The notes under the pieces: generated by a model | What the model saw: the letters and a program-made list of their open reading frames with translations, nothing else | Database searches by the model: none | Told to the model about the DNA's origin: nothing | Source: a virus | Length of the DNA stretch: 34,761 nt | IMG/VR virus record: IMGVR_UViG_3300045136_000017 | Span: 1 to 34,761 of that record | Direction: 5' to 3' (one strand) | Position numbers and translations under genes: made by a program | Shown: in pieces, positions 2,833 through 34,271 of the stretch | How positions within the stretch are numbered: position 1 is the stretch's first letter | Layout of the letters: every line of letters begins with the position of its first letter

Positions 2833-4335
2833 ATGCCTGACTTTCATCGACAGGACGGCATTACCCTTACTGAAGAAGATGTTGTCGATCTTCTAGCTAG
2901 GTATCCACAAAAGTTCCTCTGGTTTGCTCAGAAGAAGTACCATCCTCACTATTGGCAGTTCCTTTTCCACACCAATACAAACCCGGAGACTGGTAGACTG
3001 TGCCGGTTCAGGCACTTAGTAGCCGGACGGCGTGGTGGGAAGACGATGAGTGCGGCCTGGGAAATTGTGTTCTACGCTCTCCATCCAGAGGTGTTCCATC
3101 AAGACCTTCACGGGGAGCAATCCTCCAGACCCCTCGTTATTTGGGTTGTTACCCAGGACTACCCCATCGGTCTGTGGGCGAAGCTAGCTATTCGGGAAGC
3201 GCTAACAACGTCCGGACTCCAGGAGGGTGTGGATTACAAGGAAAACCGAGGCCATCAGTGGATTGAGTTCTCCAACGGGTCATTCCTACTGTTCAAGACC
3301 GCCGATCAGCCGAACAAGCTGAGAGGTGCTGGGGTGGACATCATGTGGTTTGATGAGGCCGCCGTCATTGTGAACGAGGAAGCCTGGTTGGTTAGCTCAC
3401 CGGCTTTGGCTAATACCTTGGGTATGTTCATCAGTACGACTACCCCGGATGGAAAGAACTGGTTCTACAATGAGTTCTGGTCTGACATAGCCAAAGCTAG
3501 CCCAGCACAAGGACGGGTTGAGTATTGGTCTATTGACAACCCGTACTTTACGAAAGAGGAGTGGGACCGCCTTTCTCGGGAATATCATCCCTTCAAGTTC
3601 AAGCAGGAGTTCATGGCGTCCTTCGACGCTATGGAGGGGCGAGAACTGTCGGGTTCCTGGTTGCACTACTATCCTGCTAGTGAGCTGGATCAGTATAGAG
3701 ATTCATCCGGAAATCTCACCGGGCTGACGATGTATGTTGCTGTTGACCCGGCGATTTCACTTGCGGATACCGCAGACCGGTTCTCAATCGCAGCAATTGG
3801 TGTAACCCCCGATAGGCGGCAGGCTTACTTGGTTGACCAGTGGGCTGGAAGAATCCCCTTCCCTGAGCAGGTTGACAAAATCAACCAGTGGTATCACAAG
3901 TACAGCCCATTCGGGATCGGGATCGAAAAGACAGCATATCAGATGGCTCTAGTCCAACAGATCCAGCGATTGGAGGGTCTGCCCCCAGTTGTGCCGCTAT
4001 GGGCACCCACTAAGAAATCCATGCGGATTCTTGCAATGGCACCATTCTTCCGTACCGGAAGGATCAAGATCAGCAAAGATCATGTTGACTTCATCAACGA
4101 GTGGGTCAACTATGATTCCACGAAGAAGAATCCCCAGGATGACTGTCTGGACTCCGTAGAAATGGCACTACGGCTTGCTGGTGTAGTCCTACCGAGCCAG
4201 CAGCGTCCAGAAGAATCCCCTATTCTCACCGGAGCTGCGACAACAACCGATATGTGGAGTGACATTGCTGCCAAAGCTTCGGCCAGGAGAAAGGAACAGT
4301 ATCAGATGGACGAACATCTTGGAAGTGAGTGGTAA
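2833..4335 (+). CDS. terL: terminase large subunit
   Basis: A 500-residue DNA-packaging motor with ATPase and nuclease domains. The Walker A motif is AGRRGGKT at residues 64-71 and the Walker B is DIMWFDEAA at 169-177 with the catalytic acidic pair. A STTTPDG coupling motif lies at about 201-207. The C-terminal RNase H-like nuclease is marked by VAVDPAI (Asp305), Asp315 and a late acidic DDCLDSVEMAL segment near 437-447. Length is typical for the family. It pulls genomic DNA into the prohead through the portal encoded just downstream and cuts the concatemer. An AGGAGG-type Shine-Dalgarno precedes the ATG. The stop overlaps the next start (TAATG). Confidence 0.95.
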   Translation: MPDFHRQDGITLTEEDVVDLLARYPQKFLWFAQKKYHPHYWQFLFHTNTNPETGRLCRFRHLVAGRRGGKTMSAAWEIVFYALHPEVFHQDLHGEQSSRPLVIWVVTQDYPIGLWAKLAIREALTTSGLQEGVDYKENRGHQWIEFSNGSFLLFKTADQPNKLRGAGVDIMWFDEAAVIVNEEAWLVSSPALANTLGMFISTTTPDGKNWFYNEFWSDIAKASPAQGRVEYWSIDNPYFTKEEWDRLSREYHPFKFKQEFMASFDAMEGRELSGSWLHYYPASELDQYRDSSGNLTGLTMYVAVDPAISLADTADRFSIAAIGVTPDRRQAYLVDQWAGRIPFPEQVDKINQWYHKYSPFGIGIEKTAYQMALVQQIQRLEGLPPVVPLWAPTKKSMRILAMAPFFRTGRIKISKDHVDFINEWVNYDSTKKNPQDDCLDSVEMALRLAGVVLPSQQRPEESPILTGAATTTDMWSDIAAKASARRKEQYQMDEHLGSEW

Positions 4336-4862
4336 TGAAGCTTACCTTTGGAGGCAAACTAGATAGACCCAACGTCTGCTTTCTGTGTGAAACCACCCCC
4401 GAACCGGGGTCTAAGGTTATTGACACCGAACGCTACTTCGATGGGTTTCCCCACAATCTGCGGGGGCGTCGTTACGTTTGCGAAAAGTGCGTCAATTCAA
4501 TGGTCAAGTTCTTTGACCTAGCAGACTTGGCCACCGTCGAAAGGGCGCAGGCTGAAGCACAGTTTGCCCAGGATATGCTACAGGGCCTCAAGAGGCGTGT
4601 ATATGACCTTTTTGAGGACCTAAGGCAGATTGCTGAGAATCCCAATATTCTAGTGGAGGCTGGGGATGTTCCGAAAGAGAGACCTGGAAGCGCAACTGTG
4701 GGTGATGTCCCGCACGTTGAAGCTGACCCAGGATTTGCTGGCGTTGGAGAGGCAGAAGAACTCTCTAGCATTAGCACGGATCGAAGCTCAGCGGGAGGAC
4801 ATTCGGCGGCTGCTCGAACGTATTCAGGAGCTAGCCTCTCAGAGTCCCCCTACGCGCAGTAA
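4335..4862 (+). CDS. zinc-knuckle hypothetical protein downstream of TerL
   Basis: A 175-residue protein starting at the ATG inside the TAATG overlap with TerL; a GTG two codons upstream is also possible. The N-terminal domain has two C-x2-C pairs (Cys15/Cys18 in VCFLCE; Cys49/Cys52 in VCEKC), consistent with zinc binding. A helical segment follows (about 55-105, with AQAEAQFAQDMLQGLKRRV). The last 60 residues are low-complexity Gly/Ala/Ser and coincide with a second reading frame that has its own gene (4666-5019). Function unknown; possibly a packaging or portal accessory from its position. The C-terminal part may be constrained mainly by the other frame. Confidence 0.6.
   Translation: MKLTFGGKLDRPNVCFLCETTPEPGSKVIDTERYFDGFPHNLRGRRYVCEKCVNSMVKFFDLADLATVERAQAEAQFAQDMLQGLKRRVYDLFEDLRQIAENPNILVEAGDVPKERPGSATVGDVPHVEADPGFAGVGEAEELSSISTDRSSAGGHSAAARTYSGASLSESPYAQ
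4655..4668 (+). promoter_or_regulatory. Shine-Dalgarno and start for a nested out-of-frame gene
   Basis: GGAGG at 4655-4659 stands six bases before the ATG at 4666. This near-ideal spacing lies inside the preceding gene but serves a different frame. It supports independent initiation of the 4666-5019 gene rather than a frameshift fusion. A TAG at 4651-4653 closes that frame immediately upstream. Confidence 0.65.
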
Positions 4863-5019
4863 GACCCCCCTCTACATGAGCGAATCCGAGGAGGATATTC
4901 GCTTCATGCGGGATACCGAGCAGATTAGCATCGCGGAAGCAGAGGATATGCTCCGCCAGCTACAGTTTGATAACCAAACTATCCTCGTGGATGATGCAGA
5001 GGATCTAAGTCTATTCTAG
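4666..5019 (+). CDS. coiled-coil hypothetical protein, overlapping the previous gene by 197 bases
   Basis: A 117-residue protein read in the +1 frame relative to the 4335-4862 gene. Residues about 7-55 form a strong amphipathic helix (LALERQKNSLALARIEAQRE and RRLLERIQELASQ), probably a coiled coil. The rest is acidic (ESEEDIRFMRD, VDDAEDLSLF). Its start has an ideal GGAGG site at 4655-4659. It ends 8 bases before the portal gene, whose own AGGAG lies in the gap. The regular heptad-like pattern in the overlap suggests this frame is genuinely coding there. Role unknown; perhaps a portal- or terminase-associated assembly factor. Confidence 0.65.
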   Translation: MFRKRDLEAQLWVMSRTLKLTQDLLALERQKNSLALARIEAQREDIRRLLERIQELASQSPPTRSKTPLYMSESEEDIRFMRDTEQISIAEAEDMLRQLQFDNQTILVDDAEDLSLF

Positions 5020-5027
5020 GAGAATGA

Positions 5028-7490
5028 ATGGCTGATTCAGACAAGGCGGCAGGTCAGACTAAAGATCCGGGTAGTCTGCGCACTGCTTCCGATCTAAATG
5101 ATAAGCTGGACAGCCTGAAGCGTGGGCGTCAATTGCTAGAGGCCCAATGGAAGCTAAATCTAGCCTTCTACAAGGGAAAGCAGTATACCTACTACAACAA
5201 AGCCCTGCGAAGGTTGGAAACCCTTCCTGTTGAAGATGGCGAGAAGCCTCGCTATCGGGTACGAATCGTCAACAACCAGATTGCGCCAGGGGCTCACGCG
5301 CTTCTGGCAAAGCTGACCAAGACGAAGCCTGTTACCCATGCGATCCCTGCTTCCGGTTCAAATGCCGACGTCAAAGCGGCGCAGTTGGCAGACAAGCTCC
5401 TAGAGCATTGGTGGAAAGAGTTCTCTCTCGACGATAAGCTTGCAGAAGCCCTTCTGTGGAGTATTATTACCGGGCAGGGATATTGGAAGATTACCTGGGA
5501 CCCAAATGCGGGTAAGCAGATGCGCTTCCTTCTGGATCCCAATGGGCAGCCGATTACGGATTCCGCCCTACAGGACCTATTCCGGGCAGAGCTAGCTAAT
5601 GCTGGTGTTCAGCCGCAGGAGCAGGTCGTCTATATGGGGGACATCAAGGTTGAAGTTCTCTCACCCTTCAACGTTTACTGTGACGATTCCGCCCAGGTCT
5701 TTGAGGACGCCAAGTATGTCATTTGTATCCACTACATGACTCCGGAGGAGATCAAGAAGAAGTGGGGAGTTGACGTCAAACCTGACTCCCTTCCGTCTGG
5801 ACTTGATCTTGCGCCTACCCTCCCTGGTTCCTCGGTTAATTCTACTGAGCCGAGTGTTAAGGGCGTTAACGTAGGGTACTTCCTACCCCAGCCAACACTT
5901 CCTAACGGGCGGGTTGTCGTTTGGGTCGATGAGCATATTCTGGAAGACCATCCTTGGCCGTATCCGTTCGACAAGCTACCCCTTGTCAAGTTTCCCGGTA
6001 TTCGTGTTCCCGGACAGCTCTACGATATGGGCGACGTGGAGATCGCCATCCCTATTCAGAAGGATCTCAACAAGACGATTTCTCAGATTGTAGAGTACAA
6101 AAACTTGACGCTCAAGCCGCGTGTGTGGGCTCCCACTGGATCGCTTACCGGTGTTCGGCTTACGTCTGAACCTGGTGCGGTTTATGAGTACAACATCATT
6201 GGCGACCACCGCCCGGAGATTGAGCAGCTTCCGGCGATTCCCCCGTACGTCTTTGAGCATCTGAAGAACCTGCGAGACGACATTCGTCAGGCATTTAGCA
6301 TCGTCGATATCACCGAGGGTACGCCTCCCCCGAACGTGGAAGCCGGTATCGCCATCGACCTTCTGCAGGAAATGGCAACCGATCGCCTGGCACCCCGGGT
6401 TATTCTCCTGGAACGTGTTCTGGCTAGAAGTGGGGAGCTAATGCTAAGCTTGGCCCAGGCGTACTACAAAGAGCCGCGCCTTCTGAAGATCTATGGCAGC
6501 GGGGGTAGTGCGAAAGCCAAGCGGTTTACCCAAGCTGATCTTCAGGGAGGCGTCTCTATTCATGTTGAAACCGGTTCTGCCCTTCCGCGTACCCGCGCTG
6601 GTAGGCAGCAGAGGATTCTGGACTATGTGGATAGAGGCGTCCTCAGACCCGACCAGGCTTACAAGTACCTCGATATCGCAGACTTGGAAGGGCTTTCTAC
6701 GCTGTTCCAGGCTGACGAAGACCAGGCTTACAGAGAGCACGATAAGCTTATCGCGGGCGAGCCCATCAATGTTGTGGCTATGATGAATGCTCAGATGCAG
6801 ATTCAGAACGGTGAAGCTGTTGGGCCTGAGGGAGAGCCTGTTACCGATCCTGAAGCAGCTCAGCAGTATATCGAGCAGGAATCGCTTCGCCCGCATCCGT
6901 TTGAAAACCTACAGACACACCTAGACGTACACAGTCTGTTTATGAAGTCTACTGAGTTCGAGAGTTTGCCGATGGAGGTTAAACAGAGGTTCCTCACGCA
7001 CTTCTCGCTGACTCAGGAGGCTCTAGCTCAGCTGCCGAAGCCCATTGAGTTCAAGGCGGTTACCCCGACGCTCCAGATCAAGAGCACCGCTGGTCCTACG
7101 GCGATCTCCAAGATTCTGGATCGGGCGGGTATTGACGTCACTCCTGAGGAAATGCAGGAGCCGCCGCTTGAAACGTGGGTCACCGATAGCCTTGACAAAA
7201 TTGACCAGGATGAGGCGGGTAATGACCCGCTTACACCCCTGGATATGCAGCTCAAGGCTATGGAGATTCAGACTAAGCTGGCCGATGCAGCCATTCGATC
7301 TGGAACTATCGCCCAGCAGAATCAGATGAAGGCTGAGCAGCACTTCCAGCAGTTGGGTAGCCAGGCCGGTATTCAGGTTCACAAAGAGCGTGAAGCCAAA
7401 GCCAAAGCTGACCTTGCTGAGAAGAAACTAAGAGAAAGTTCCTTCAAGCCGAAGCCTACGCCAAGAGGGAAGTCTAATGGCAAGGCGTAA
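5028..7490 (+). CDS. portal protein (head-tail connector)
   Basis: An 820-residue protein, in the size range of large podovirus-type portals. The N-terminal region has RRQLLEAQWKLNLAFYKGKQ-like helices and tyrosines, then VRIVNNQIAPGAHALLAKLTK and the LLWSIITGQGYWKITWDP segment typical of portals. A central VEYKNLTLKPRVWAPTGS region and a PPNVEAGIAIDLLQE segment match the wing and stem region. The C-terminal 130 residues are Gln/Lys-rich helical with a basic end (PKPTPRGKSNGKA), like the barrel of long portals. It forms the ring through which DNA enters and leaves the head. It follows TerL and precedes the scaffold and capsid genes. Its last 14 bases overlap the next gene. Confidence 0.9.
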   Translation: MADSDKAAGQTKDPGSLRTASDLNDKLDSLKRGRQLLEAQWKLNLAFYKGKQYTYYNKALRRLETLPVEDGEKPRYRVRIVNNQIAPGAHALLAKLTKTKPVTHAIPASGSNADVKAAQLADKLLEHWWKEFSLDDKLAEALLWSIITGQGYWKITWDPNAGKQMRFLLDPNGQPITDSALQDLFRAELANAGVQPQEQVVYMGDIKVEVLSPFNVYCDDSAQVFEDAKYVICIHYMTPEEIKKKWGVDVKPDSLPSGLDLAPTLPGSSVNSTEPSVKGVNVGYFLPQPTLPNGRVVVWVDEHILEDHPWPYPFDKLPLVKFPGIRVPGQLYDMGDVEIAIPIQKDLNKTISQIVEYKNLTLKPRVWAPTGSLTGVRLTSEPGAVYEYNIIGDHRPEIEQLPAIPPYVFEHLKNLRDDIRQAFSIVDITEGTPPPNVEAGIAIDLLQEMATDRLAPRVILLERVLARSGELMLSLAQAYYKEPRLLKIYGSGGSAKAKRFTQADLQGGVSIHVETGSALPRTRAGRQQRILDYVDRGVLRPDQAYKYLDIADLEGLSTLFQADEDQAYREHDKLIAGEPINVVAMMNAQMQIQNGEAVGPEGEPVTDPEAAQQYIEQESLRPHPFENLQTHLDVHSLFMKSTEFESLPMEVKQRFLTHFSLTQEALAQLPKPIEFKAVTPTLQIKSTAGPTAISKILDRAGIDVTPEEMQEPPLETWVTDSLDKIDQDEAGNDPLTPLDMQLKAMEIQTKLADAAIRSGTIAQQNQMKAEQHFQQLGSQAGIQVHKEREAKAKADLAEKKLRESSFKPKPTPRGKSNGKA

Positions 7491-8865: not shown

Positions 8866-10110
8866 ATGGCCTTTCTTGGCGCATCTGTTGCCCAAACTCT
8901 CTCTGGTGTTCTCAAGGATGTTTACCTCGGCAGTGTCGTCGAGCAGCTAAACAACGAGGTGCTGATTCCTCAGCGCATCGGTAGGGAGACCCAGGAGTTT
9001 GCGGGCAATCAGGTCGTCCTCTCTGTCCATAAGCAGCGATCCTCGGGTGTGTTCGCTCGCGGTGAGAACGTTCAGTTCGCCGATCCTGGTGCGCAGCTCT
9101 ACGCGAAGCCGGTCTACGACATCAAGGCCCTCTACGGTCGGATTCGTATTACCGGTCTTGGCCGTGTGAAGACTGCATCCCAGGCGGGCGCGTTCCTGAG
9201 GGTGCTCGAGGGCGAGATCAACGGGATGAGGAACGATCTCAAGATGGACCTCGCCCGTCAGCTCTACGGGGATGGTACTGCCCGGATTTGTTCCGGCTCT
9301 GCCTCCTCGTCCAACACCATCGATATCCGCCCGCTCTCGGGTGGTACTGTCAATACGGCCGAGCCCCTTCGCAAGGGTGAGATCTATATTGGCATGCAGA
9401 TCGATGGTGGGACCCAGGCATCCCCGACCGCGAGTTTCGCGAACCGGGGCGTTACCGACGTCAATGTTTCCACCGGCCAGATCACCATTGATGGTGCTCC
9501 GGTGTCCATGACGTCTGGTACGCACTTCATCTTCCGGCAGGGTAACGCTGCTCCTGGTGGCGTTTCCTACGAGATCTCCGGTCTCCAGCAGGTCGTGCCG
9601 ACTGCCCCCAACACGTTTGGTGGCATTGACGCTGCGGCCCCTGGTAACGGTTGGTGGGATGCGCTCCGCATCAACGCTGCGGGTGCCCTTACGCTCGATC
9701 TTATGACGCAGGCTGTCAACACCGTCACGGTTGCCGGTGGGGATACCTCCGCTATGATTGCGAGCCCGGGTATGCAGCGTGCGCTGTTCAACCTGCTCCA
9801 GCCCCAGGTCCGGTATGTTGAGCCTATGACTCTCCACGGTGGGTTCAAGGCTCTTGACTACTTCGGGCAGCCGTTCATTGCAGATCGGCAGGCTCCGTTT
9901 GGGAGGATTTACTTCCTGGACGAGAAGCACCTGAAGATGTTCGATACCGGTGACTGGAACTGGCTGGATGAGGATGGATCAATTCTGAAGTGGGTTGTCG
10001 GCTATGACGCTTGGGAGGCGGTGCTTGCTAAGTACTGCAACCTTGGCGCTCAGAGGCGGAACGTCCACCTGGTCATGTACGGTCTGACGGACGATCCGAA
10101 CGGGATTTAG
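8866..10110 (+). CDS. major capsid protein
   Basis: A 414-residue protein in the canonical place after the scaffold. The sequence fits HK97-fold capsid proteins of podovirus-like phages. The N-terminal arm has LKDVYLGSVVEQLNNEVLIPQ. An E-loop-like segment follows (SVHKQRSSGVFARGENVQFA), then a spine-helix region (FLRVLEGEINGMRNDLKMDLARQLYG). The C-terminal A-domain has a VVGYDAWEAVLAKYCNLGA-like ending. No prohead protease is encoded next to it. Strong codon bias (many C-ending codons) relative to neighbours fits very high expression. Gene-flanking hairpins lie at 8814-8844 and 10131-10155. It forms the icosahedral shell. Confidence 0.9.
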   Translation: MAFLGASVAQTLSGVLKDVYLGSVVEQLNNEVLIPQRIGRETQEFAGNQVVLSVHKQRSSGVFARGENVQFADPGAQLYAKPVYDIKALYGRIRITGLGRVKTASQAGAFLRVLEGEINGMRNDLKMDLARQLYGDGTARICSGSASSSNTIDIRPLSGGTVNTAEPLRKGEIYIGMQIDGGTQASPTASFANRGVTDVNVSTGQITIDGAPVSMTSGTHFIFRQGNAAPGGVSYEISGLQQVVPTAPNTFGGIDAAAPGNGWWDALRINAAGALTLDLMTQAVNTVTVAGGDTSAMIASPGMQRALFNLLQPQVRYVEPMTLHGGFKALDYFGQPFIADRQAPFGRIYFLDEKHLKMFDTGDWNWLDEDGSILKWVVGYDAWEAVLAKYCNLGAQRRNVHLVMYGLTDDPNGI

Positions 10111-25017: not shown

Positions 25018-25944
25018 TTACCCGACTTGCCACCCTGGAGATTGGACGTAGAGTCTTCCTTCGTCGAGGAAGGCGTATCCTTGTGCCCAGGTTGGGTAGG
25101 TGGTTGTTCGTTGGAGATATCCGGTTTTCTCTCTGTCAAACAGACCTCCAATCTCGGCCACGACGTTCTTGGCATTGATGCCGTAACCCACGGCGCAATG
25201 ATGCGAGTGGGCGGTAATCACGTTGCACTCATACTTAGTACTGAGTGTGCGAGCGGTGGACAGAGGAACCCTGGTATAGCTACCAGGATGGCAGATATAC
25301 CACCGCCCCTCCTCATCTTCGTCTCCGACCCACATGTGATCCAAGTTGGTGAACCTGATGCGGTCTAGCTCCTCCCTATCCAGAGGCCCAAACACCAGCT
25401 TCATAGCCTCCTGGAACTTCATAGCGAAGCCTAGCGCCTTGTGAAGGCGGGCATCATGGTTCCCCCACAGGAAGTAGACTGTATCGAAAGACTGCAACAG
25501 GGTATGCATAACCATTCCGGCTTCTGCCACCTCAGCCTCCAGTCCACCAAGTTCCTGCTTCGGTTCGTACATAGACAGGGCGTCGAAGTTGAAGAAGTCA
25601 CCAGCAATGATTAGCTTGGTGATCCCTCTCGCCCGGCTATCCTGCAAGAACTTGTTGGCATACTCTGCATCGTAGAGCGGAATGTGCCAGTCTGCGGTGA
25701 TCGCATACCTATCGTTCTTTGGAACGACAATTGGCTTGTCCCACTCGATGTTCAGTCTTTCGGCCACCGGTGGGTCTGTTGGAAGCAGGTGACGGGTAAC
25801 CCTCATAGAGGCCAGGCCCCGTCTAATGGTACTCTCATTGACGCCAAACTTCTCAGCGATCTTGCGGTTGCTGAGATTCTGTTCGACGGCCATGCGAGCT
25901 GCTTCTCTCCAATCGATCTTTGATCTGCTAATGGCGTACTCCAT
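25018..25944 (-). CDS. HTH-fused calcineurin-like metallophosphoesterase
   Basis: A 308-residue protein. Residues about 10-48 are a helix-turn-helix (LSNRKIAEKFGVNESTIRRG). Residues about 78-300 are a metallophosphoesterase with the full metal-ligand set: Asp85 and His87 (TADWH), Asp116 (AGDFF), Asn162-His163-Asp164 (GNHD), His219 (CHPG) and His246/His248 (TAHSHH). This family hydrolyses phosphodiesters, including DNA (Mre11/SbcD-like) and nucleotides. The HTH suggests a DNA-directed role. It overlaps the sigma region-4 gene by 17 bases and is the last gene of the leftward operon. The start at 25944 has no clear Shine-Dalgarno, so translation may be coupled; a later ATG (residue 18) is possible. 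Confidence 0.85.
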   Translation of the reverse strand: MEYAISRSKIDWREAARMAVEQNLSNRKIAEKFGVNESTIRRGLASMRVTRHLLPTDPPVAERLNIEWDKPIVVPKNDRYAITADWHIPLYDAEYANKFLQDSRARGITKLIIAGDFFNFDALSMYEPKQELGGLEAEVAEAGMVMHTLLQSFDTVYFLWGNHDARLHKALGFAMKFQEAMKLVFGPLDREELDRIRFTNLDHMWVGDEDEEGRWYICHPGSYTRVPLSTARTLSTKYECNVITAHSHHCAVGYGINAKNVVAEIGGLFDREKTGYLQRTTTYPTWAQGYAFLDEGRLYVQSPGWQVG

Positions 25945-29815: not shown

Positions 29816-30225
29816 TCTTCAACCTGATTGGCCACCTTACGGAGATTCTCCAAAGCCGCAGTCATCGAGGGAGTGGTAGCCGGAAGTTCCTCTGCGAGGA
29901 CCTTATCGACGGCGTTGAGGAGTTCGTAAAGCCTATACTCAACGCTTAGAGCCCGATCCATCCAATCAATGAGTCCATCGGACTCCGCCCGGGCAGTCTT
30001 CTCCCAATCATCCCGCTCCTCTCGGAGTTTGTTGTAATCATCCATCATTTCTTTGATGACACACCAGATCTGGTAGACCTCGGTTGTGTGCTCCCGGCTA
30101 GCCCTCTCAATGACATATGACCACCAGGCCGGTTCCTGCGGCATATTGTTAGCAATGCTTTCGCGGAGAGCGGCAGCAATGTCGCTAAGGCTAGGTGCCT
30201 GCTCTTTAGTCATCTGCTTCGTCAT
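29812..30225 (-). CDS. hypothetical helical protein
   Basis: A 137-residue protein. I start it at ATG 30225, because GAGGAG lies 7 bases before. Other in-frame ATGs are at 30252 and 30213. The protein is highly charged and helical: TEVYQIWCVIKEMMDDYNKL, REERDDWEKTARAESDG and VEYRLYELLNAVDKVLAEEL. These stretches suggest coiled-coil formation. No motif recognised. It overlaps the next gene downstream by 4 bases and the acidic gene upstream by 20. It may be part of the replication operon's accessory set. Confidence 0.55.
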   Translation of the reverse strand: MTKQMTKEQAPSLSDIAAALRESIANNMPQEPAWWSYVIERASREHTTEVYQIWCVIKEMMDDYNKLREERDDWEKTARAESDGLIDWMDRALSVEYRLYELLNAVDKVLAEELPATTPSMTAALENLRKVANQVEE

Positions 30226-30709
30226 CCTTTGACTCCTCGTCTTCGGATTCATTCTTGGGATTGTCTTCGGTCACCGGAAGCTCGAGCTGGCTAAAGGCTT
30301 CATCCTCGAGTTCCATAATCTCCCCGAAGTATTCCTGGAGTTCTTTCTGGTGTCCGGCTTCGTCCAACATCTTCACCAAGTCGTTATTCATCTTCAGCAA
30401 CTCATTGAGCATAGCTGTCAATAGACGAATCTCGTGAGTTGCCTCCTCACACCGAGCTAGTGCCTGTCCGGTTAGGGTGACATAGCACTGGGTTACCGTT
30501 CTGATCTTCCCCTGGGTATAATCCTGCGAACACCTGCACTGATGATCGAACCCGTATACCCAGTTCCACCGTTTACGATTCGCAGCAAACTCCGCCTCCT
30601 GTTGGTCAAGGAAAGCGACCGTCGCTGCGTCAGGCTCGTGATCGTACTCTGTGGGTAGATCCCAATCTTCGCCATTCTCCTCGGGATCAACCATGTCATA
30701 ATCAGTCAT
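30206..30709 (-). CDS. acidic hypothetical protein
   Basis: A 167-residue, very acidic protein (start MTDYDMVDPEENGEDWDLPT; end ESEDEESKDDEADD). The middle has two cysteines in HQCRCSQ, another in TQCYV and one in ARCEEA, and a leucine-rich helix (RLLTAMLNELLKMNNDLVKM). AAAGGA stands 4 bases before the ATG. It overlaps the end of the DNA polymerase C-terminal gene by 8 bases. Strong negative charge could mean DNA mimicry or a histone-like binding role, but that is speculation. No family recognised. Confidence 0.55.
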   Translation of the reverse strand: MTDYDMVDPEENGEDWDLPTEYDHEPDAATVAFLDQQEAEFAANRKRWNWVYGFDHQCRCSQDYTQGKIRTVTQCYVTLTGQALARCEEATHEIRLLTAMLNELLKMNNDLVKMLDEAGHQKELQEYFGEIMELEDEAFSQLELPVTEDNPKNESEDEESKDDEADD

Positions 30710-31472
30710 GGAGTCCTTTCTTCTCCGACCAATTGGTCTGTGTGTATTCCATACTCACTGTAATAGGCACGACTTCACTAATCTTGGGATAGTCCATCCA
30801 CTGAGGAATCCGCTGTACCAACCAATCGAACTCCTCGGCGGCCACATCAAAAACTAGCTCATCGTGAATGACGGTAACCAAGTGAGACCTACATTCCGCT
30901 AGCTCGCGGTGACAAACCCGTAGTCCAGACCGCATCACTTCTGCGGCACTGCTTTGGACTACAGCATTGAGCATCTTGTGCGAACTAGTGGGATGCAGGC
31001 GTGCCCCTGCTACCGTCTTTAGATAGCCTCTGCTGTTGTACGTTGCTTCCAACGCACTAATGACTCTCCTGATCCCAGGCCACCTCCTATGGAACCTGTC
31101 AAGTACTTTACCAGCATATTCCCAGGTGACCGGGATGTTCCCACCTTCATTGTTGAACTGAACCAGATAGCGCATAACGGCTGGCTTGCCTCCGCCATAC
31201 ACCATCGAGAAGTTCATGTTCTTCCCAAGCTGCCGTTCGGCATCGGTAGGCTCCCGGTCAATCTGGAAGATACCTCGCGCACTCTCTTTGTGCAGGTCGG
31301 TATCCGGATCTAGTAGGACGTCCCTCATACTGCTATCCCCTAGCTGGCTCATGTAGTAGGCTAGAACCCGCATCTCGATCTGATCGTAGTCTCCAAAGAC
31401 TAGATAGTCGAGCTTGGGGATGAACGCCCTCTTTACCACTTTGTCCTTACGGGGAAGCGTCTGGATGTTCAT
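30702..31472 (-). CDS. family A DNA polymerase, C-terminal part (palm and fingers)
   Basis: A 256-residue gene starting MNIQTLPRKDK, which matches the conserved 'PN-(L/I)-Q-x-(I/L)-P' element of PolA enzymes. The palm/finger motifs are all present: motif A GDYDQIEMRVLA (Asp28), motif B RQLGKNMNFSMVYG (Arg80, Lys84, Phe88, Tyr92) and motif C VIHDELVFD (His203-Asp204-Glu205). The exonuclease and thumb are in a separate gene at 31957-32898. With it, total length is about 569 residues, normal for a phage PolA. It starts in an ATGA overlap with the SLOG gene and has no clear Shine-Dalgarno, so reinitiation is likely. Active only with its partner, by inference. Confidence 0.9.
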   Translation of the reverse strand: MNIQTLPRKDKVVKRAFIPKLDYLVFGDYDQIEMRVLAYYMSQLGDSSMRDVLLDPDTDLHKESARGIFQIDREPTDAERQLGKNMNFSMVYGGGKPAVMRYLVQFNNEGGNIPVTWEYAGKVLDRFHRRWPGIRRVISALEATYNSRGYLKTVAGARLHPTSSHKMLNAVVQSSAAEVMRSGLRVCHRELAECRSHLVTVIHDELVFDVAAEEFDWLVQRIPQWMDYPKISEVVPITVSMEYTQTNWSEKKGLHD

Positions 31473-31957
31473 TGCGGGATATCCATTCTCGGTGGGTCAA
31501 AGTTGTACCCACGCCAGAACTCATCGTCGTATACAGCCCACGGATTGCCCGTAGGCCCAATAATGATGATCTCGCGTCGTAGTCTAAAGGCCTCCCTAAT
31601 GAAGCCCTGGGTACCTTTGGAAGAACCGTCCCAAAAGACCAGGCATGAGTTCGCGTGTCTGGCAATGAGCTTGTTTCGCCTATGTCCTGCGCCCTTGCCA
31701 TACTTCTTCCACTCAGCCTCATAGATAACAAGATCCCGTCCCTGTTCCTCTGCGTAAGTCGCAGCCCAGGTATCCGGACCTCTTGCGTCTCCGGTGACAA
31801 TCCCCCATTCCAGCGGCATGTGATCCATGTTCATACGAACAAGGGCGGAGCCTTTGGCAACCGTCTCCAACTGATCGTTTGCCGACATTTTGTCCCAGGT
31901 TTCCTTATCGAAGGGGTAGTAGCGGGAACCCGTGATGGAAACCCAATAGTCTGCCAT
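31469..31957 (-). CDS. SLOG-family (YspA/cpYpsA-like) protein, inserted between the polymerase halves
   Basis: A 162-residue protein starting at ATG 31957, which is the A of the previous TGA stop. GGAGG at 31969-31965 is 7 bases upstream. SLOG (Rossmann-like) hallmarks are ITGSR at 8-12, TGDARGPDT at 55-63, AEWKKYGKGAGHRRN at 81-95 and DGSSKGT at 110-116. These proteins bind nucleotides or nucleotide-derived ligands; their functions are little known. It is not a homing endonuclease, intein or maturase by its motifs. It ends in an ATGA overlap with the polymerase C-terminal gene, so the three form one translational unit. Confidence 0.85.
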   Translation of the reverse strand: MADYWVSITGSRYYPFDKETWDKMSANDQLETVAKGSALVRMNMDHMPLEWGIVTGDARGPDTWAATYAEEQGRDLVIYEAEWKKYGKGAGHRRNKLIARHANSCLVFWDGSSKGTQGFIREAFRLRREIIIIGPTGNPWAVYDDEFWRGYNFDPPRMDIPQ

Positions 31958-32898
31958 CAGGAGTCCTCCGTTGAGCCAGCGCTGAATCGTCGGCCCTTGG
32001 TACCCCATTGCTTATGGTTCGGATGCAGAATCCCGTCACGCACCTCCGTTTGGAGTGGCTTGAAGTATGAGCTGTACAGCTTGGAGTCATGCCGTAGTTG
32101 TAGCAAGACCTCCACAAACTCATCATCAATAGCCTTTAGCACGTCCTTGCGGGTGGACTCCAAGTTGAGCCCCCTATCGGCCAAAGCCTGCTTTACCTGA
32201 ACCGGGCTATTAGGGTTGAAGTCTTCGTTCCCAGTGAGATCCCTCAAGCGTAGCTCAAGGCGCAGGATGTTGTCTGCCAGCTGCTTCGTATAATCATTGA
32301 CGTATTCTACGTCAACGCCAAGCCCCTGGCGTTCCATATCGAACAGAACACCCATTAGCTCCTGTTCTTCACGATACAGCCGGAGCAGGTCTGGATCAGC
32401 CTGCACCTCAGGCCAAAGGTACTCGAACAGTAGGAGGGTGAACTCAGCATCCTTACGGGCATATGGTTCCAAGACATCGCTTGGTAGCGCATCATACCCG
32501 TCTGCCTTCTTTAGACCTAGCTTCCTACGGGCAGCACGAAGCGCCTCGGACTCATCGGTTTCCAGCCCGAGTAGTTCCTTGGCTAGGCGCTTTAGGGCCT
32601 TCGGCTGTTGTTCGTTTACTAGGTGGGATAGGCATTCGGTATCGTGAATGCGGTACCAATCAATATCAGGTGACATCAATCCCGCAAGGACTAGCTTCTG
32701 AAGGTCGAACTTGGCGTTATGGAATACCAACTCGACGTCATTAGCCCGCAGTTCGGGCCAACGCATCGGGTCATCCAAGTCATATCGAACATCAGAACAT
32801 AGCTCCCCTGCGGGATTGCGCCATGCCCTACTCACACAGAACGCGGTGTCCCAATAGCCTAGTCCAGTGGTCTCCGTGTCTAGCGCCAAGTATCCCAT
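31957..32898 (-). CDS. family A DNA polymerase, N-terminal part (3'-5' exonuclease and thumb)
   Basis: A 313-residue protein. The proofreading exonuclease motifs are ALDTETTG (Asp7, Glu9), FHNAKFD (Asp65) and YARKD (Tyr146, Asp150). The thumb/palm start has FNPNSPVQVKQAL at 227-239, a standard PolA segment. The end, LHPNHKQWGTKGRRFSAGS, covers the 'G-T-x-x-G-R-(L/F)-S' element. The frame then stops after STEDS, exactly where the conserved 'PNLQNIP' should follow. That element begins the separate gene at 31472. No zinc finger or primase is attached. Starts 13 bases downstream of the ERF gene. A weak ribosome site (AGG) precedes it. Confidence 0.9.
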   Translation of the reverse strand: MGYLALDTETTGLGYWDTAFCVSRAWRNPAGELCSDVRYDLDDPMRWPELRANDVELVFHNAKFDLQKLVLAGLMSPDIDWYRIHDTECLSHLVNEQQPKALKRLAKELLGLETDESEALRAARRKLGLKKADGYDALPSDVLEPYARKDAEFTLLLFEYLWPEVQADPDLLRLYREEQELMGVLFDMERQGLGVDVEYVNDYTKQLADNILRLELRLRDLTGNEDFNPNSPVQVKQALADRGLNLESTRKDVLKAIDDEFVEVLLQLRHDSKLYSSYFKPLQTEVRDGILHPNHKQWGTKGRRFSAGSTEDS

Positions 32899-32911: not shown

Positions 32912-33385
32912 CTAGAACAGGACTTCCCTAGTCTTCTCGCGCTTGCTAGGAGCGTTCACAACCTCCCGCGCGGGACGAACAGGGCTTGCCTTATTGCCAT
33001 CGTCATCCTCGTCGGCGACAATCCCGAGCATAGACATCAGGGCGTACCGACGGGCATAGGTAATCGCACTACCCAACCCCTGGGGGTTGTCCTTCTCGAG
33101 CATGAGAGGAACCTCGCCCTCGATAGTCTCCTGCGTCTCGGCGTCAATAATGCTGGTCTTCAAAGTAGGAACGCCAGCATCATCGCCCGATGGGGTCTGG
33201 ACAAGAAGCAGCCCATGAGCGTTTAGGACAGGCAGTACCACATCCAGCAACTTACCTAGCGAAATGTAGGTATTGCGGAAATGCGGGTTGGTGGAATCCT
33301 TGGTCAGACCTTCAAACCCAGTGGTCTGGATTTCAAGGAGCTTACCAATGACTCCCTTAGGCGCGGCGTTTGTTGTATTCGGCAT
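32912..33385 (-). CDS. ERF-family single-strand annealing recombinase
   Basis: A 157-residue protein. I start it at ATG 33385, with GGAGGTG about 10 bases upstream; an upstream ATG at 33520 would add a segment of the nuclease gene in the wrong frame. It has LLEIQTTGFEGLTKDSTNPH with FRNTYISLGKLLDVVLPVLN, and the ERF signature NPQGLGSAITYARRYALMSM at 100-119 followed by GIVADEDDDGN. ERF proteins anneal complementary single strands (P22 Erf-like) in phage recombination and circularisation. It works with the RecB-like nuclease upstream, which overlaps it by 29 bases. The C-terminus is basic. Confidence 0.9.
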   Translation of the reverse strand: MPNTTNAAPKGVIGKLLEIQTTGFEGLTKDSTNPHFRNTYISLGKLLDVVLPVLNAHGLLLVQTPSGDDAGVPTLKTSIIDAETQETIEGEVPLMLEKDNPQGLGSAITYARRYALMSMLGIVADEDDDGNKASPVRPAREVVNAPSKREKTREVLF

Positions 33386-34271
33386 CAGTAGGAAACACCT
33401 CCGGTCGATAATTTTCATAACCCTTGCGCGGGACATACTGCCGCCCAAGTGTAAAGTGACCGATCTTCTCGGTCTTAGATCGTGGGCAGAGAGTTTCATC
33501 GAACTCACAGTACCGCTCATACCAAATTGGTACCAACTTCAAGTCGAAAACTCCCTGCTGCTTGTTCCAATATAGCTTCTGTTCTCGCTCCGGCATAGGA
33601 GCCAAAGCATCATTCAGGTAGTCGCCAGTCTCAGCATACCGGGTTCGGTATTCATCCACTGCGTCCAAGATCGTTTTCATGCGCCCATAGACTACCTCCT
33701 CCGGGAGCGGCTGACAGTCTGCCACTACTGGTGTAATGTCCACCGTATCATTGGTATCGTTCATCGGCCAATACAGAATCCCGAAGCCTTTGACGAGTGG
33801 AACCCCACGATTAGCAAGCGCGTGCCAATACGCGCTCAACTGCCAGATGTGCTCCGTCTTTGCACCATCCTTATCGATCCAATGCAATCCCTCGCCCCGA
33901 ATGGTCTTCAAGTCCCCGAGACACCAAGCCTCATATTCCGGGTGCCAGAATAGCCAGTCGGCTGTACCGCCCCATCCCTCCGGTAGATCGTCATTGAGAT
34001 TGACCTCATACTCAAAGCGAATCCCGGTTTCAGCCAGAACCTTATGGAACCACTCGTGCCATAGGGTACCGTGAAACAGCCGTACCGTCTGAATGATGGG
34101 ACGAGGAACCGCAGGAGCGCCAACAGCCCGTAATTGTACAAACCTGAGCGGAGCACAAAGATCGCTGGAACAGTGTAGCAATCCGTCAGGCTCTCGCTTG
34201 GTCTCCTCAATCTTCGCCAGAAAGAGGTTTACTAGGTCTACGGGCAAGATAGCACTGTTTGCATTTGACAT
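33357..34271 (-). CDS. PD-(D/E)XK (RecB/Cas4-like) exonuclease
   Basis: A 304-residue protein counted from ATG 34271; ATG 34307 is an alternative. The RecB-type start (LLHCSSDLCAPLRFVQLRAV) and a FHGTLWHEWFHKVL helix precede the nuclease core: Asp105 in GGTADWLFW, Asp120-x-Lys122 in LGDLKT, and Gln144/Tyr148 in WQLSAYW. The rest is helical and beta without a 4Fe-4S Cys cluster, so it is RecB-like rather than true Cas4. With ERF it forms a two-component recombination pair, the exonuclease making single strands for annealing. Its N-terminus overlaps the zinc-knuckle gene by 65 bases. Confidence 0.85.
   Translation of the reverse strand: MSNANSAILPVDLVNLFLAKIEETKREPDGLLHCSSDLCAPLRFVQLRAVGAPAVPRPIIQTVRLFHGTLWHEWFHKVLAETGIRFEYEVNLNDDLPEGWGGTADWLFWHPEYEAWCLGDLKTIRGEGLHWIDKDGAKTEHIWQLSAYWHALANRGVPLVKGFGILYWPMNDTNDTVDITPVVADCQPLPEEVVYGRMKTILDAVDEYRTRYAETGDYLNDALAPMPEREQKLYWNKQQGVFDLKLVPIWYERYCEFDETLCPRSKTEKIGHFTLGRQYVPRKGYENYRPEVFPTDAEYNKRRA

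Follow-up and report, generated by a model that had tools for sequence, protein, structure and literature searches.

Two polymerase genes flank a SLOG-fold gene

The window analyzed here is the whole of IMG/VR record IMGVR_UViG_3300045136_000017, a stretch of 34,761 bases. Its virion genes include those for a P22-like portal, TerL, and an SU10-like capsid protein. The minus strand carries, in order, an ERF recombinase gene (32912-33520), the N-terminal portion of a family A DNA polymerase (polA-N), a SLOG-fold gene, the C-terminal portion of the polymerase (polA-C), and gene X, with a gene for a uracil-DNA glycosylase family protein further on. The features of the locus are as follows.

31957..32898, minus strand: polA-N, 3'-5' exonuclease, thumb, and start of palm, 313 aa, ending GRRFSAGSTEDS*
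31959..31957, minus strand: stop codon of polA-N, its last base being the first base of the SLOG ATG (TGATG)
31469..31957, minus strand: SLOG-fold gene, 162 aa, cargo of the gap in this subclade (ATG at 31957, TGA at 31469)
31469..31472, minus strand: ATGA overlap, with the polA-C start inside the SLOG stop
30702..31472, minus strand: polA-C, palm and fingers, 256 aa, with motifs A, B, and C (ATG at 31472, TGA at 30702)
30206..30709, minus strand: gene X, a conserved protein without a family match, directly after polA-C

The polA-N, SLOG, and polA-C genes occupy three different reading frames, and the N-terminus of polA-C reads MNIQTLPRKDK.... The window sequence bears out the coordinates, the frames, and the 1- and 4-base overlaps of the original prediction, as well as its central observation that a polymerase lies in two intact genes with a complete SLOG gene between them. 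Gene X, possibly an accessory protein, also follows polA-C in four of the related phage records described below (L025, L026, L115, and L116).

The cut lies in a conserved DNA-contact loop

Pfam searches assigned polA-N a 3'-5' exonuclease domain (4e-15) followed by positions 2-123 of the 381-position DNA_pol_A profile, and assigned polA-C positions 127-380, such that almost nothing of the polymerase is lost between them. When both halves were aligned by profile to solved structures, the N-half stopped at Taq residue 578 and the C-half picked up at residue 580, placing the cut inside the Taq loop TGRLSSSD-P-NLQNIP. In the Klenow and Taq structures, this loop is turned toward the minor groove of the primer-template. 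The proposal that the cut is exact within one conserved loop is thus confirmed, as is the retention of all catalytic motifs across the pair, per Pfam and the alignments: polA-N has the exonuclease residues D7/E9, N61/D65, and Y146/D150, and polA-C has motifs A (DYDQIE), B (R80...K84...YG), and C (HDE). Taken across the pair, Exo I, II, and III and motifs A, B, and C are all present, which places the two products together in the family A DNA polymerases with 3'-5' exonuclease.

The predicted structure of polA-C alone has a pLDDT of 88.6 and a TM-score of 0.84 to Bst polymerase, and its fold also matches Klenow and Taq; the exception is residues 1-14, which are poorly modelled and form the loop at the cut. 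The dN/dS ratio of polA-C is 0.04 where dS is measurable, and third codon positions vary most in polA-N, SLOG, and polA-C alike. The best NCBIfam score for polA-N was to DpoZ_1, a 2-aminoadenine polymerase (1e-27, below the cut-off). PurZ (PF00709), sought as a link to Z-genomes, was absent from all seven split-polymerase records, some of which are fragments. An HD-domain-like ORF lies near the polymerase in L072 (L072:9632-10180) and in L115.

The same split recurs in a single old clade

The original prediction asked whether the split point recurs in homologues, and it does: six further IMG/VR phage records (L025, L026, L072, L115, L116, and L118) are cut at the identical codon. A scan with polA-N gave two close relatives, L025 (76%) and L026 (73%), and alignment-based scans added the other four. 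A DNA-pattern scan for MNIQTLP had a sole relevant match, L062, which is the same contig as L026. The N-half tails of the seven are short and varied (STEDS, ATDEA, EADEA, SANA, AEDA, AEA, and ASNN), and the C-halves begin with (M/V/I)N(I/F)Q(T/N)(L/I)PR. All seven records contain exactly two DNA_pol_A pieces each, and no spare DNA_pol_A copy was found in any of them. In a tree of 76 polymerases, the seven split ones form one clade (SH-aLRT 99), with one state change relative to the 69 others and path lengths of about 1.0-1.8 changes per site. The single clade, the single state change, and the long paths together indicate that the split arose once and is old.

This recurrence in six further independent contigs rules out chance or misassembly, including the possibility raised with the original prediction that the stop codon at 31959-31957 is an assembly error. 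A broader reading, in which the split stems from faulty assembly or sequencing or the polymerase gene is dead, can point to the fact that the clade is represented by metagenome contigs only and to a 4-base insertion in motif A of the L025 polA-C (L025:8548-8562), which breaks the frame and could be a mutation or an assembly error. Nevertheless, with the cut at the same codon in all seven contigs, halves and gap genes that stay open, catalytic motifs kept, and selection that is purifying, we consider this reading extremely improbable.

Almost all other polymerase loci analyzed are single open frames. Exceptions in unrelated loci (L019, L189, L219, and L226) have a different position or possible frameshifts. 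In L226 (L226:4404-7764, a Winogradskyella undariae contig), the polymerase match falls into two open frames cut between the exonuclease and polymerase parts, and this break may be a different split, a frameshift, or a masking effect. No split of the same kind was found among the cultured phages of INPHARED, where only polymerases of <35% identity were retrieved and the eight genomes opened were intact. A search of 85,000 genomes found no close prophage relatives, the best matches being ~30% identical and those analyzed mostly intact, and no intact close relative showing a pre-fission state was found.

Gap contents turn over, and the SLOG gene is one of several cargoes

The gap between the polymerase halves ranges from 299 to 1553 nt across the seven contigs and holds different genes in different phages.

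Window: SLOG only, 484 nt between stop and start
L026: 57-aa ORF and SLOG, 640 nt
L025: two small ORFs, SLOG, a 93-aa ORF, and a LAGLIDADG-like ORF, 1553 nt
L072: metallophosphoesterase (PF00149, 6e-14), a 62-aa ORF, and a LAGLIDADG-like ORF, 1226 nt
L115: 117-aa and 87-aa ORFs, 556 nt
L116: 64-aa ORF, 299 nt
L118: 62-aa and 183-aa ORFs and one ORF overlapping polA-C, 1043 nt

An endonuclease gene is thus absent from the window gap, and LAGLIDADG-like genes occur in only two of the seven phages, L025 and L072, in both adjoining polA-C directly upstream. Their products share 35% identity (E 1e-6) and both match PHROG 5046; since their Pfam LAGLIDADG scores are below the cut-off, the family call is based on this match, a GFFDGEG-type motif, and the presence of paralogues within the same phage. 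The window itself has a metallophosphoesterase gene elsewhere (25018-25944), of the same superfamily as the L072 gap cargo.

The SLOG product of the window has a weak Pfam match to YAcAr (E 5e-6, below the cut-off) and a match to PHROG 289 (E 3e-19). Its AF2 model has a pLDDT of 82, and Foldseek places ShosA, DprA, and the SLOG domain of ThsA among its top PDB matches. The assignment to a Rossmann-like SLOG fold holds on the model and these structural matches, and with it the SLOG-family identity originally given to the insert. SLOG lies between the polymerase halves in three records only, the window and its closest relatives L025 and L026, and a pattern search of viral contigs found no relatives beyond the clade. 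The L025 phage also has a second, distant SLOG-like match (29%) outside the polymerase gap (G001:13373-13609, L270).

The original prediction had cast the SLOG protein as a possible nucleotide-sensing partner of the polymerase. In its strongest form, SLOG would be a true third subunit or a ligand-sensing regulator, kept between the halves for joint production, in line with the tight overlaps in the window and with its retention in all three close relatives at 66-71% identity to the window protein under strong purifying selection (dN/dS about 0.08 wherever dS could be measured, with third positions accounting for most differences). However, the order with SLOG recurs only in the window, L025, and L026, and the four other split polymerases (L072, L115, L116, and L118) have different gap genes. 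Even in L026 and L025, further genes lie between polA-N and SLOG, such that the tight linkage is not conserved. Furthermore, no SLOG homologue was found anywhere in the L072 (50.5 kb) and L118 (47.7 kb) records, which may be incomplete, and SLOG accordingly does not appear to be a general partner of the split polymerase. A subunit or regulator is, in our view, quite unlikely; judging from these sequence comparisons, SLOG is most likely a functional, selected passenger that is not part of the enzyme.

No intron or intein is detected at the cut

Group I introns are common in phage polA genes (PMC3428280, PMC11878797), and the gaps open with TAA, TAG, or TGA, as some phage introns do, making it conceivable that the gap is a self-splicing group I or group II intron with cargo ORFs and that a single chain is made after splicing. 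The L025 phage provided an internal positive control, as its capsid gene contains two intron-like inserts bearing LAGLIDADG-like ORFs (L283, G001:42000-50791), while the window capsid gene (8866-10110) is the intact counterpart of this twice-interrupted gene. With cmscan, Rfam identified a group I intron in one of these capsid inserts (E 1.7e-6, below the gathering score), yet no intron was found in the six gaps scanned, those of the window, L025, L026, L072, L116, and L118. The AAGATATAGTCC signature is shared by the two capsid inserts but does not occur in any of the seven polA gaps, the 5' exon ends lack the U, the 3' ends share no common G, and the window gap is coding along its full length. 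As such, an intron in the gaps was rejected, and splicing to a single chain is very improbable.

An intein in the window was likewise rejected, there being no intein residues at the cut. Neither the N-halves nor the C-halves of the seven phages carry intein segments at the cut; the N-halves end 2-3 residues past the cut, and the C-halves open at the conserved Asn. A different phage polymerase does show what appears to be an intein in this loop. The L257 and L261 polymerases are 99.7-100% identical, with L257 intact and L261 broken (reverse strand, about 3334-6191) at TGRWTA|C, about five codons upstream of the cut in our clade. In L261, an apparent intein N part (CLVADTQL...) is followed by a free ORF containing an HNH-like stretch and then by an apparent C part (...ANGKLVHN|C). 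Because a Pfam search of these pieces reported no intein or HNH family, the split-intein call is based on sequence motifs. L257 and L261 thus appear to be a near before/after pair for homing into this loop, and by these motifs they show that mobile elements hit this part of the polymerase. The claim that the insert resembles no intron, intein, or homing endonuclease therefore stands for the window but not for L025 and L072, with their LAGLIDADG-like genes before polA-C, nor for this loop in general, given the apparent split intein and endonuclease of L261.

The L261 example also lends itself to a reading in which the split descends from a gene fractured by a split intein, the intein halves being lost later and the chains left unjoined. 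This would be a variant of the explanation we favor below, differing only in the kind of homing element. Against it, neither half retains an intein remnant in any of the seven phages and the clade is cut about five codons downstream of the L261 intein site, and we consider it unlikely.

The second half may begin at a repurposed codon

The first codon of polA-C is ATG in the window, L026, and L115, GTG in L025, ATC in L072 and L118, and ATA in L116, the apparent ATC and ATA starts being at L072:8190, L118:6001, and L116:1615. In L072, an in-frame stop codon directly precedes the ATC, such that the conserved NFQNIPR could be translated only from ATC or by readthrough. In L116, the ATA is preceded at a distance of six bases by a strong AAGGAGGT, which occurs in 0.25% of random stretches; no Shine-Dalgarno match precedes polA-C in the window, and those at the other sites are weaker than that of L116. 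AUC and AUA are rare as start codons, and translation in L072 and L116 could alternatively begin at an internal GTG located a few codons further on. The use of ATC and ATA as starts is inferred. In other phages, intact polymerases carry V or I where polA-C starts (GRWSAGGGQK-V-NFQNIPR), which suggests that a pre-existing codon was probably turned into a start. The open reading frames, stops, and start contexts together point to separate translation of the halves.

An old fission with interchangeable cargo

We favor, with a probability of roughly 75%, an old gene fission, probably driven by homing, that produced a stable two-chain polymerase with interchangeable cargo in which SLOG is a passenger. 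The polymerase of this clade underwent one fission, located in the thumb-palm DNA-contact loop (after Taq 578, before N580) and most likely begun by a homing element at a conserved target. The codon before the conserved Asn, probably an ancestral Ile or Val codon, would have become the start codon of the second half, and the separately translated halves would re-associate into one working polymerase. The two-chain enzyme of the original prediction is thus the most likely outcome, given a real split with the catalytic motifs kept. The gap is a site of gene turnover, accommodating SLOG, metallophosphoesterase, small ORFs, and the LAGLIDADG-like endonuclease. In the window, SLOG would be a selected passenger whose overlaps may couple translation of the two polymerase halves. 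Against a homing element as the cause, the endonuclease is present in only two of the seven phages and so was possibly a later arrival.

A bolder version, in which the polymerase has been obligately two-chain since the origin of this deep clade, the gap cargo can regulate or accompany it, and some second halves start at AUC or AUA, is tentative and rather doubtful. The fission itself is a natural division of the most thoroughly studied polymerase fold, placed at a DNA-contact loop and maintained over long divergence. It makes testable how a Klenow-type enzyme tolerates being in two chains and offers ready-made split-polymerase parts. Moreover, when a homing element splits a gene of a core replication operon, it may thereby create a stable site at which new genes can settle.

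Comparison with known systems

Among the closest known systems is the split family A polymerase of the OM43 phages MEP401 and MEP402 (Zobellviridae, OP830906/OP830907; PMC10580990). There too, polA is in two genes, one with the exonuclease and N part and one with the C part, with an ORF between them and conservation within a phage group. However, MEP401 and MEP402 belong to another phage group, their cut lies between LQNFDGEIKTLFLSRYGE and MILNADAKALEW, a more downstream position immediately ahead of motif A, and the 77-aa ORF in their gap is unrelated to SLOG.

Fragmented phage replication genes, some of them with a homing endonuclease between the fragments, also occur in T4-like phages, as in the split gp43A/gp43B of Aeromonas phages 25 and 44RR and the Aeh1 nrdA gene split by MobE (reviewed in PMC2988022). 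These split products have been shown to be functional, the family B gp43A and gp43B of phage 25 reportedly co-purifying and polymerizing (PMC2988022), but they belong to another polymerase family or enzyme, and that work describes no deep clade with varied cargo at a single site. As with the group I introns in the polA genes of SPO1, Bastille, and Pf-WMP3 (PMC3428280, PMC11878797), conserved polA sequence is the insertion target here. In contrast to those cases, no intron RNA was found in the gaps, and the halves are apparently translated separately.

Fractured genes with split inteins and a free-standing endonuclease were reportedly described by Dassa et al. in 2009. Like these, of which L261 appears to be an example, the polymerase is a replication gene broken at a conserved site, in some members with an endonuclease gene between the halves; unlike them, the window clade lacks intein halves, so protein splicing is not expected. 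The window SLOG protein shares its fold and GSR and GxAxGxD-like motifs with DprA, YspA/YAcAr, the ThsA SLOG domain, and ShosA, but, unlike these, consists of one free-standing domain encoded within a polymerase operon. Split polymerases have precedents among phages; relative to the open-access literature, what is new is the cut site, the single origin, the persistence of the split throughout a clade, and the turnover of cargo between the halves.
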